From Alphaproteobacteria bacterium (GTDB lineage Bacteria > Pseudomonadota > Alphaproteobacteria > UBA9219 > RFNS01), in contig JBBCGY010000002.1 of the NCBI GenBank assembly GCA_037200005.1, forward strand, positions 248,001-312,000: 64,000 nucleotides of DNA, given 5' to 3'. Positions within the stretch are counted from its first letter, which is position 1. Each line of letters begins with the position of its first letter. The notes beneath the pieces are model-generated. The model searched no databases, was not told where the DNA came from, and saw only the letters and a program-made list of their open reading frames with translations. Below, piece after piece: positions 51,375 to 55,006 of this stretch. Both the position numbers and the translations under genes were made by a program.

Positions 51375-52676
51375 ATGAGAGTCAATTGGGTAGAGAAAAC
51401 GGTTCGGGTCGGCGCCAGCTTGGGATTACGCGGGGGCTCCTTGCTCGCGAAATTTGCGCTGATGGTATACATCACGCGCTTTATCGGCCTTGAGGCGGTA
51501 GGCATTTTCGGTCTTCTGCAGGCGGCGAATGTCATAGGCACCAAGGCTGCGGGCTGCGGCTTTTCCTTTGTCGCCAACCGGGCGATCGTCGACGCGCCGC
51601 CGCCTCAGCAGGCGCGCATTATCCGCGATCAGCAGATCGTTTACGTCATCGGTTACGCGGTGATGATTCTGCTGTCCTTGCTGGTTTATCCTTGGATTCC
51701 AGATCAATACCGATTGTATATGATGTATTCCATCATCCTTCTGATCGTCGGGCATCAGGTTCTGGAACTGGGAAATATATTATACGGCATGCATCGCGTG
51801 CTCGCGGGGAATACCATTTTCGCCCTCAATAACGGCCTGTGGGCTTTCGTGATGATTCCTTTGGGCCTGGCGTTCGCGGAATTTCGCACGCTCGACGCCG
51901 TCATCATCGGGTGGCTGGCCGGCACGGTCGCGGCGTTCCTGATGGGGCTTTGGCTGATCGCGCGGCTGCCGTTCGCCGAAGCCGTCAAACAGAAACCGAA
52001 TTGGAACTGGATCAAGCGCGGCCTGTGGCGTGGATTTCCGCTTTACGCCGCCAGCCTGGCGCAGCACGGCAGCAATTATGTCGACCGTTATGTCGTCTCG
52101 GGATTCGTCGGGCTGGAATATGGCGGCGTTTTCGTGATGTTTTGGTCGTTCGCCTATGCCGTGCAGGTTCTGGTGGAGACCGGCCTGCTCGCGGGCGGCA
52201 TGCCGAAACTGGTCGCCAGCTATAAATCCGGCGATGAATCGGAATTCTGGCGGCGTTTCCGGGACTTGTCGGCGATGATGGCGCTTGCCGGGGCGGGGTT
52301 CTCCTTGGTCGCGGCGGCATTAATCCACCCCGTTCTGTCTTTCATCAATAAACCGCTGGCGATGGAGAATGTCGGCAGTTTCTATCTAATATTGCTGGCG
52401 TTCTGGATCAGGTTCCAGGCCGGCGCCAGCAATGCGGCGCTCTATGCCCGGCACCAGGACCGGACGCTTACGCTGGCTTACTGGCTCAATCTCGTGGTGG
52501 CCAGCGCGACCAATATACTATTCGTATGGCTGTGGGGGCTGTGGGGCGCGGCGCTGGCGCAGGTCGTCACGGCTATATTTCTCAGCGTGTTCCAGGCGAT
52601 CTTTCTATGGCGCTTGCGCCATGACCGTCCCAAGGTGCTGGAAGACGAGAGCTCTAGTCCCGGCTTGCTGGTCTAA
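51375..52676 (+). CDS. Polysaccharide flippase (Wzx-like)
   Basis: 433 aa from MRVNWVEKTVRVGASLGLRG; a TTG six codons upstream is possible. About 12 hydrophobic helices; YITRFIGLEAVGIFGLLQAA and YVDRYVVSGFVGLEYGGVFV are typical of lipid-linked oligosaccharide flippases. Intact, unlike the flippase at 14591-16097, and distinct in sequence. It overlaps the convergent glycosyltransferase by four bases. Confidence 0.88.
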   Translation: MRVNWVEKTVRVGASLGLRGGSLLAKFALMVYITRFIGLEAVGIFGLLQAANVIGTKAAGCGFSFVANRAIVDAPPPQQARIIRDQQIVYVIGYAVMILLSLLVYPWIPDQYRLYMMYSIILLIVGHQVLELGNILYGMHRVLAGNTIFALNNGLWAFVMIPLGLAFAEFRTLDAVIIGWLAGTVAAFLMGLWLIARLPFAEAVKQKPNWNWIKRGLWRGFPLYAASLAQHGSNYVDRYVVSGFVGLEYGGVFVMFWSFAYAVQVLVETGLLAGGMPKLVASYKSGDESEFWRRFRDLSAMMALAGAGFSLVAAALIHPVLSFINKPLAMENVGSFYLILLAFWIRFQAGASNAALYARHQDRTLTLAYWLNLVVASATNILFVWLWGLWGAALAQVVTAIFLSVFQAIFLWRLRHDRPKVLEDESSSPGLLV

Positions 52677-53713
52677 TCGCCATACAGATCGAGCAGCGCG
52701 TCTCTTTGCGTCGTCTCGTTATAATTCTTGTTGAGCACATCGTTGATCGCCGCGAATGGCGAGGTGTCCAGGCTTTCGCCCCATGCCATCTGGGTGAAAC
52801 TGTCGACCGCCGCCTTGACCGAGGGCACGATAGGCTGCACCGGCAGGCTGGCGATGGCGGGCGTATCGCGGCAGACCAGCAGAAGCCCGAGATGCGAAGC
52901 CTCTAATATCGACATGGGACAGGATTCCCACGCGGCGGTATGGTAATAGATATCGCATCCGGCAAGTTTGGCGAGAAGCTGTTCATGCGGCATCCATCCG
53001 CTGACTTCGACTCCCGCCGCGCGCATTTTTTTCTCCCATGCGGCATCGCCGCCGCCGAGCCATACGAACTCCGCCGGAACATCGCGCTCTTTGGCGAGAT
53101 TGACCGTCTCGAGGAAGAAGGTGGGGTCTTTCTGGGGGGAGAGCCGTCCGACCATGGCAATCCGCAATTTCTCGCCACGCTTATGGCCGCGCCGCAGTTC
53201 CCTGATATTTTCCGGTATGACCGGGGAGTTGGGCAGCAATATAGTGTGCTGCGCAATGAGCATTTTCTGCGCCAGCTCGAGTTCGCGAGGGCTGACGGCT
53301 GCCGTCGCGCCGCCGCCAATGCAGAGAAGCTGTTCGGCAAGCATGTAATACCACCGCTTAAGCTTGCTTACATCGCGGCGTTCGAAAGCATAGCAATGCG
53401 GAGTATAGACAACGCGATTGCGGGGCAGCATCGCCATGCGGCCATAGGCTCCGGCATAGGAAGAATGCAAATGCACCCAATCCGGCTTGATGTCGTCATA
53501 AACTTTCCGAATTGTTTTGACGGCCGGGCTGAGACTGCGGGGCAACTCGTAATGTCCGGCAAAACCTTGCAGCCAGCCCATCTTGTCATGGGTCCCCTCG
53601 CGCGCGGCAGCGAGCAGAAAATGCCAGTGCTGCGGCGTGCTCTGCAAATAGCCTTGCATGGCGGTGGCGACGCCGCCGCCCAGCGACTCTGTGATATGGA
53701 GGATTTTTTTCAT
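52673..53713 (-). CDS. Group 1 (GT4) glycosyltransferase
   Basis: 346 aa: MKKILHITESLGGGVATAMQ, VYTPHCYAFERRDVSKLKRW, then the donor domain RIAMVGRLSPQKDPTFFLET, VEVSGWMPHEQLLAKL and the signature ESCPMSILEASHLGLLLVCR (E-x7-E). Retaining transferase, cytoplasmic face. Donor and acceptor unknown; probably works with the neighbouring flippase. Confidence 0.9.
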   Translation of the reverse strand: MKKILHITESLGGGVATAMQGYLQSTPQHWHFLLAAAREGTHDKMGWLQGFAGHYELPRSLSPAVKTIRKVYDDIKPDWVHLHSSYAGAYGRMAMLPRNRVVYTPHCYAFERRDVSKLKRWYYMLAEQLLCIGGGATAAVSPRELELAQKMLIAQHTILLPNSPVIPENIRELRRGHKRGEKLRIAMVGRLSPQKDPTFFLETVNLAKERDVPAEFVWLGGGDAAWEKKMRAAGVEVSGWMPHEQLLAKLAGCDIYYHTAAWESCPMSILEASHLGLLLVCRDTPAIASLPVQPIVPSVKAAVDSFTQMAWGESLDTSPFAAINDVLNKNYNETTQRDALLDLYGD

Positions 53714-53859
53714 GACAAAGGAAGGTTCCGTTACGTTCTTATGGACATTAACGCTTCAGGCTGGTTTTTCAACTGATAATTCTTTCAAGGCGTTAAAGGC
53801 AAGTCCCCAAGAGGAAAGCATGTTTTCCTTAATCGCGCCTTATGTCAAAGTATTAGAGG

Positions 53860-54115
53860 CGAGACTCATAAATAACATGGGTTCTGCGCGAGCAGAAAAG
53901 CCGATCCGGCTACGAAAAGGCCGTAGCAGGTAGCGGTGCTTACCTGCAAGGCCGTTGAGAACGCCGGTCGGCTTTTATGCCGCGCCCTTCGGGTTTGCAA
54001 AAGAAGCCCAAGGGCGGCGTCAACTTCGCTCGCCGTAGGTGTCTACGGCTTCGCTCGTTTCCTGGCCCTTGGGCTTCTTTTATCAAACAGAACCTCATGC
54101 TATTTATGAGTCTCG
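53860..54115. mobile_element. 256-bp nested palindromic element (MITE-like)
   Basis: Terminal inverted repeats of 27-28 bases (53860-53886 and 54088-54115) both read CGAGACTCATAAATA, then CATG and GGTTCTG, with one mismatch and one extra base. Inside are two further long stems: 53896-53910 with 53963-53976 (AAAAGCCGA-CCGGC), and 53999-54015 with 54065-54081 (a perfect 17 bp, AAAAGAAGCCCAAGGGC). These enclose hairpins at 53909-53927, 53926-53947 and 54032-54049. No ORF. The rest of the 53714-54151 gap shows nothing clear. Confidence 0.75.
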
Positions 54116-54151
54116 ACCCTCGAGTGATTCGCTGAAAATTACGTTTTTTAT

Positions 54152-55006
54152 ATGACCGAAAAACCTCTTTTGCCCAACCGTAGACTGTTTTTGCGCTGCG
54201 CTTTGGGCTGCGCTGCGCTTGGAATCTCGGTTTCGGTGCCGACTTCCTTATTTTCCGCCGAAATCAAGAAGCCGGGCCGCAAAAAGCGTTTTCCCATGCA
54301 GTCAGGGGCCGCGGCCTCGCCCCCTAAGCTTCTGATGATCGATCCTGGCCACGGAGGCCGCGATCCTGGGGCTATCGGCGCGGCGGGCACTTATGAAAAG
54401 GATATTACCCTCGATATATCGCGGCGAATGGCGCAGCATCTGGCCGGGAAGCCCCGCCTGAACGCTTCGCTGACGCGCGACATGGACGAATTCATGCCCT
54501 TGGCCGATAGGGTGGAAAAAGGACGGCAGACCAAGGCTGATTTTTTCGTCTCCGTGCATGCCGATAGCGCCTCCAATCGGGAAGCGCGCGGTTTCTCGGC
54601 CTATACGCTCTCCGACCAGGCGACCGACGATTTTTCCAAGGCTCTGGCGCAACAAGAAAATCTTGCCGACAGAATCGGCGGCGTCAATCTCGACGGCACC
54701 GATCAGGAAGTGGCGGGCATTCTTCTGGATTTGGAGGCGCGGCGTTCGCGCGATGTCGCCCAGCGGGCGAAAGTCGATTTGGTGCGCGGCGTGGGCAAGG
54801 AATGGCGTTTGCTCAATAACCCCTTGCGCGCCGCCAATTTTGCCGTATTGCGCGCGCCCGACATACCTTCCATTTTGGTCGAGACGGGCTTTCTGTCCAA
54901 CAAGAAGGACGAGGCCATCCTGCGTCAGCCCGCGCAACGCGAGAAAATCGCCAAACTTCTGGCCAATGAACTGGCAAGAATTATGGCGGTCAGCGCGAAT
55001 GGCTGA
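54152..55006 (+). CDS. N-acetylmuramoyl-L-alanine amidase, Tat-type signal
   Basis: Zinc hydrolase that cleaves the peptide from the glycan of peptidoglycan (Amidase_3, AmiC-like). 284 aa. A twin-arginine signal (NRRLFLRCALGCAALG, R10-R11) targets it to the periplasm. Zinc ligands H67 (DPGHGGRDPGA), E82 and H136 (SVHADS), catalytic E244 (ILVETGFLSN). No AMIN domain, so shorter than E. coli AmiC. Confidence 0.93.
   Translation: MTEKPLLPNRRLFLRCALGCAALGISVSVPTSLFSAEIKKPGRKKRFPMQSGAAASPPKLLMIDPGHGGRDPGAIGAAGTYEKDITLDISRRMAQHLAGKPRLNASLTRDMDEFMPLADRVEKGRQTKADFFVSVHADSASNREARGFSAYTLSDQATDDFSKALAQQENLADRIGGVNLDGTDQEVAGILLDLEARRSRDVAQRAKVDLVRGVGKEWRLLNNPLRAANFAVLRAPDIPSILVETGFLSNKKDEAILRQPAQREKIAKLLANELARIMAVSANG

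Follow-up and report, generated by a model that had tools for sequence, protein, structure and literature searches.

What is the elaborately folded stretch of DNA that separates a glycosyltransferase gene (52673-53713, minus strand) from a divergent amidase gene (54152-55006, plus strand) in this alphaproteobacterial contig, and at which level, DNA or RNA, is its fold maintained? Within the window, the 64,000-nucleotide stretch analysed here, positions 53855-54120 hold one copy of a multibranched inverted-repeat element of 264 bases, with limits at 53856 and 54119. A sequence-only reading had recognised nested inverted repeats at this locus and placed them at 53860-54115; the repeats are present and the element itself stands, although these limits miss roughly 4-5 bp at either end. 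The 25-nt outer arms (53855-53879 and 54096-54120) are 88% complementary and enclose two pairs of inner arms (53988-54015 with 54065-54092, and 53892-53922 with 53950-53980) as well as small hairpins. The minimum free energy is -146.7 kcal/mol on the plus strand (z = -10.6) and -159.2 kcal/mol on the minus strand (z = -14.1), and none of 200 dinucleotide shuffles folded as well on either strand. The ORFs of the ORF list that overlap the element are all small, at 91 aa or less.

Read from left to right, the element begins after a TA (53854-53855), presumed to be the left half of a TA target duplication, with the left arm of the outer stem (53856-53885, plus strand). This is a terminal inverted repeat which, compared with insertion sequence (IS) ends, is of IS5 type, degenerate in this copy. 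Arm B follows (53886-53985, limits approximate), with a lower stem, conserved internal loops and the apical hairpin CAGGTA..TACCTG. After a small central hairpin, GCCCTTCGGGTT (53984-53995), comes arm A (53997-54085, limits approximate), built likewise from a lower stem (53997-54015 with 54065-54084), conserved internal loops and an apical hairpin, CCGTAG..CTACGG. These three parts were delimited by an RNAalifold consensus, supported for both arms by per-helix covariation. The right arm of the outer stem (54086-54119, minus strand), assigned from inverted repeats, fold and consensus, is the second terminal inverted repeat; the TC that follows (54120-54121) presumably represents the right-hand TA of the duplication, now decayed.

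Copies, mobility and target sites

To search for further copies, we analysed the genome of origin and its relatives by BLAST and with a covariance model. The genome of origin (G000; 2.36 Mb in two contigs) carries four copies, of which the other three are 87, 80 and 75% identical to the window copy. BLAST returned matches in 8 of 59 genomes, one of them (G053, a 28-base match) probably by chance. The covariance model, built from 19 copies and spanning 272 positions, matched 10 of 33 genomes of the order, at least 17 of 289 genomes of the class and at least 23 of 398 genomes of the phylum, 10 inside the class and 13 outside; a few of these matches are weak and partial, the E-values are rough, and the genome counts are probably low, no more than 4-6 candidates having been scored for each genome in the larger searches. 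When named genomes were scanned with a pattern, 17 loci emerged, all of which the model matches too; they lie in five assemblies, each labelled Alphaproteobacteria or Proteobacteria bacterium. Plasmid copies were seen in Pseudomonas, Azotobacter, Pseudoalteromonas, Shewanella and Thalassospira, most as partial matches. No match was obtained in viral contigs, in phages searched with the L116 element, or in plasmids searched with the window, L116 and L264 elements. The sequence-only reading had proposed this search for copies and named a single copy with an unconserved fold as the outcome that would refute it; that outcome did not occur.

At the gathering threshold, Rfam models detected only tRNAs in the window and none inside the element, and a permissive search of eight loci (E up to 5) gave weak hits outside the element and none inside. 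The claim that no known family matches holds within Rfam and the literature searched, where we found no described family corresponding to it, and this kind of element has apparently not been described until now.

The element is mobile. At both loci queried for empty sites, L052 and L057 of genome G010, the element is absent from the congeners G004 and G008, where its flanks are contiguous or nearly so; at one of the loci a gene's apparent stop codon precedes the element and the apparent start codon of the following gene comes after it. At neither site is the TA duplication exact. Several similar copies in G006 are located at contig ends, which suggests recent spread. Across 87 copies, with end positions picked with a bonus for TA and one G215 copy entered twice (L061 and L228), a TA adjoins the left end in 68 (YTA in 61 of these) and the right end in 62 (TAR in 57); both sides carry it in 49 copies and neither side in six. 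According to the description in PMC5493358, IS5 elements target Py-T-A-Pu, mostly CTAG. The proposed check for target duplications was borne out by the 49 copies with TA on both sides; the window copy has TA and TC. Three single-arm elements of about 168 bp in G011 (L041, L049 and L055) have CTAG on both sides and nearly identical outer stems.

Gene context was judged in the 61 of 87 copies with sufficiently long flanks, the flanks of the other 26 being short. In 15 of the 61 the stop codon of a long ORF ends one base inside the element, whose first G would complete TAG. These ORFs were called mechanically, so genes may have been truncated in such cases, with the exception of L052, whose empty site already has TAG there.

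The link to IS5-family insertion sequences

The ends of the element identify its closest relatives. Genome G003, from the same taxonomic family as the genome of origin, contains an 847-bp IS5-family IS, one end of which is 93.5% identical to the G016 element across 31 bp. An IS5 element of Nitrobacter shares 18-22 bp with the ends of the G000 and G006 copies, and ISs of Moraxella and Psychrobacter share 18-23 bp with the ends of the G010 and G441 copies; the matching ISs are about 845-847 bp long. The window copy is degenerate in this respect (18 bp at 88.9% identity, E = 0.03). All three transposase ORFs checked carry PF13340 and match the NCBIfam IS5 model, one of them above its cut-off. Outside the ends, six elements compared with four ISs showed no similarity reaching E = 0.05. 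As both the ends and the YTA/TAR flanks match those of IS5-family ISs, the element is a miniature inverted-repeat transposable element (MITE) by its ends, target and mobility.

An autonomous element with the same ends, which the sequence-only reading had suggested looking for, was not found in the genome of origin; a partner with a G016-type end is present in G003. A PF13340 profile search of G000, G012, G010 and G013 gave no match. Searches of the genome of origin and of other genomes for an IS bearing the element's ends returned only lone ends besides the known copies; among 83 end matches in G215 no inverted pair at IS length was seen, and tblastn found no IS5-type transposase adjoining the fetched element copies. 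Of the 33 genomes of the order, 8 match an IS5-type ORFA and 6 do so above the cut-off, with no correlation to the presence of the element. On a Psychrobacter plasmid, pP32BP2, an IS5-type IS with TAGGGCGTGTCATCAATTA ends lies at about 1503-2345 (L299) and is absent from the gene table of the record. A distant copy, L278 (G628:C3:169047-169316), has quite different ends, TTATACCAATTG...CTTGGTATTA, from which it seems that the core may bear non-IS5 ends as well.

Mobile DNA hairpins are also handled by a different class of enzyme, the Y1 transposases, which read hairpins with unpaired motifs. We considered whether the element could be a single-stranded DNA element moved by a hairpin-recognising Y1 transposase of the RAYT or IS200-IS605-like kind, whose substrates its conserved DNA hairpins and unpaired motifs resemble. 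The Y1 domain PF01797 has no match in the element-bearing genomes G000, G006, G012, G013 and G031 and is present in element-free genomes such as G014 and G018. G006, estimated to be 100% complete in 120 contigs, is a particular argument against a Y1 mover, and ends and targets fit IS5 instead. We rejected Y1 transposase as the mover on this distribution and regard the reading as extremely improbable.

Apparent maintenance of the core at the DNA level

To determine whether the fold is conserved, we carried out the covariance analysis that had been suggested for the copies. Across 19 copies, 95.1% of cells in the stems are paired and 72 of 95 stem pairs have changed on both sides; none of 500 shuffles reached either value. 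Covariation of this kind, together with the extreme stability of the fold and the many copies that lie directly before start codons or between same-strand genes, could be explained by a structured non-coding RNA or mRNA leader that is spread by transposition and selected as RNA. Stem changes in RNA commonly pass through G.U, so selection on RNA should leave G.T far above A.C among the mismatches.

This excess was not observed. The stems of 40 copies contain 72 G.T and 70 A.C mismatches, with the better strand kept at each locus (73 matches reduced to 40 loci). By subset, G.T and A.C stand at 50 to 57 in the 31 order copies and at 22 to 13 in the nine class copies. For RNase P RNA, taken as a control from 22 genomes of this order (22 of 29 loci, L193-L221, passing the length cut; 30 fetched), the counts were 172 G.T to 13 A.C. 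Refolding each strand of the element independently gave 46 to 38 and 54 to 39, and the outer stem, counted in 78 of 82 copies without any fold model (four skipped; the G215 copy again entered twice), has 41 G.T and 33 A.C. In ten G215 copies G.T exceeds A.C by 20 to 11, three that could not be oriented being omitted; a 13-copy version in which some copies are misoriented gives 64 to 22. These leanings in G215 and in the class subset run against a DNA reading, but they are far from the RNase P ratio.

Since G.T is about as common as A.C, unlike in RNase P RNA, the pairing is kept at the DNA level, and the core appears to be selected, or at any rate maintained, as folded DNA. In distant copies the two strands have similar folding energies, which, like the lack of an Rfam match, speaks against an RNA. 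A leader RNA, which the many nearby start codons had suggested, was dropped after the mismatch count; a regulatory RNA is not supported, and selection as RNA is in our view very improbable. The sequence-only reading had left the choice between a MITE and a structured RNA; the copies, empty sites, flanks and IS5-family ends uphold the former, and the mismatch counts and Rfam searches tell against the latter.

Loop conservation, decay and modular forms

Conservation is uneven within the arms. With 7 of the 40 copies omitted as short or partial, identity in the nine class-level copies is 0.60-0.61 in the unpaired internal loops of the arms and 0.29-0.40 in their lower stems. Taken over all columns, paired and unpaired positions differ little (0.43 versus 0.53) at class level and in the opposite direction (0.68 versus 0.61) at order level; because this difference is small or absent, the contrast is confined to the arms, where internal loops differ from lower stems.

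Differences between pairs of copies were then sorted into single-sided and Watson-Crick double changes. For the 19 copies from the order, a pair shows about 8 single-sided differences throughout the identity bins from 85% down to 60%, and 11-15 below them; double changes increase over the same bins from 5 to 26. In the most similar pairs, single-sided differences exceed double ones, by 4.5 to 0.5 where identity is at least 95% (n = 2 pairs) and by 7.1 to 1.6 at 90-95% (n = 9). The pattern of the order copies fits neutral decay of landed copies combined with constraint in the multiplying lineage. Among ten G215 copies, single-sided differences keep climbing from 4.5 to 19.0, with no plateau.

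The same MITE could also owe its complementarity to arm-to-arm copying during replication, through quasi-palindrome correction by template switching, rather than to selection on pairing, with the loops kept for another reason such as protein binding. Copying of this sort would yield changes that are only Watson-Crick and roughly strand-symmetric, as observed, and in five elements (L038, L002, L043, L277 and L034) both ends match the left end of the IS better than, or equally to, its right end, as if one had been copied from the other. However, the excess of single over double differences between the closest copies indicates that correction is infrequent in landed copies, and arm copying leaves the greater conservation of internal loops over lower stems unexplained. 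We therefore consider it a less likely explanation, though one of some weight.

Loop conservation also bears on whether the element might simply be an ordinary, decaying IS5-derived MITE with functionless inner hairpins. Its IS5-type ends and TA flanks, and the neutral-looking mismatches of landed copies, are what such a relic would have. Yet scattered genomes throughout the phylum share the two-armed architecture of about 270 bp under different ends, the internal loops keep their sequence as the stems change, and the core beyond the ends is unlike the four ISs compared, which together make functionless hairpins improbable.

The architecture varies in a modular way. G011, G010, G024 and G215 contain elements of 165-184 bp with a single arm, so two arms are not strictly needed, and G215 has forms of 317 and about 390 bp with extra sequence at the central hairpin, corresponding to about 53984-53995 in the window copy. 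In the roughly 390-bp forms (L223-L227 and L250) the extra sequence is a long GC-rich central hairpin, which may point either way with respect to the arms. A 537-bp form (L232, G215:C37:34300-35900, element at about 502-1042) has a further two-armed unit nested inside a hairpin arm, with the different ends GATACC...GGTATT. Very short remnants with one or two ends and no core, at L100 (G000:C1:437889-437909) and L083 (G031:C13:7090-7110), look in their sequence as if the core had been deleted. That arms A and B are inverted duplicates of each other is not claimed here: the model matches both strands, which is suggestive, yet only one of four copies exceeded the best of 200 shuffles by sequence.

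Taken together, the element is likely to be a MITE with IS5 ends that is moved in trans and whose core needs its DNA fold during multiplication, landed copies decaying neutrally. It would have two parts of different origin, an outer 18-31 bp of IS5-family ends and an inner conserved DNA fold. The outer ends would derive from IS5-family ISs, which have a DUF4096-type transposase, YTAR targets and a duplicated TA; given such ends, an IS5-family transposase presumably moves the element in trans. The inner fold would comprise the two hairpin arms with the small hairpin between them, and pairing of the ends would close it; its stems may vary freely in sequence as long as both sides remain Watson-Crick complementary, with the internal loops better conserved. 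It would be required as DNA while the element multiplies, possibly forming as a cruciform, in single-stranded DNA at the replication fork, or under supercoiling. Our best guess at its role is that the folded core pairs both ends and presents the loops to a transposase or a host protein, allowing movement or copying. More tentatively, the elements may constitute a phylum-wide selfish DNA fold that acts as folded DNA rather than through RNA or protein, takes on the ends of whichever IS5-family transposons are available, and gains or loses hairpin arms.

Known systems resemble parts of this picture. IS5-family ISs (IS1301-like, NF033580/PF13340) and the MITEs derived from ISs have similar ends (18-31 bp), YTAR targets and TA flanks, and IS-derived MITEs are likewise dispersed without a transposase gene. 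The core of our element, by contrast, is not part of the four ISs compared, occurs phylum-wide under several ends, and shows Watson-Crick covariation and conserved loops. The attC sites of integrons and REP/BIME hairpins act in the form of folded single-stranded DNA; their unpaired features are conserved and their stems vary. The element is similar in its conserved loops and variable stems and differs in its size and ends, its IS5-type target and the lack of a Y1 transposase match in five element-bearing genomes. ERIC/RU, Correia and similar repeats are small, mostly intergenic and TA-flanked, with terminal inverted repeats and a long hairpin fold. The element is alike in size class, intergenic placement, terminal inverted repeats, TA and hairpin fold; going by their description, its two separate conserved arms, modular variants and double-sided stem changes set it apart. 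Bacterial MITEs are described in general terms in PMC5896051 and PMC10969869. QMITE1 of Coxiella burnetii, as portrayed in PMC5896051, is 300-400 bp long with 21-28 nt terminal repeats, and BLASTN is stated there to have found no orthologues; by that description it resembles our element in its long palindromic fold and terminal repeats.

On the more tentative reading of a phylum-wide fold, the element would amount to a transposon satellite, with its heritable function residing in DNA shape. Compensatory change is usually read as a sign of functional RNA; here it is accompanied by nearly strand-symmetric mismatches, which points to a fold kept in DNA, and counting G.T against A.C provides a simple test that separates DNA folds from RNA folds. 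The element thus offers a natural case, scattered through the phylum, in which DNA shape is apparently constrained in mobile elements, and for which a candidate transposase family is at hand.
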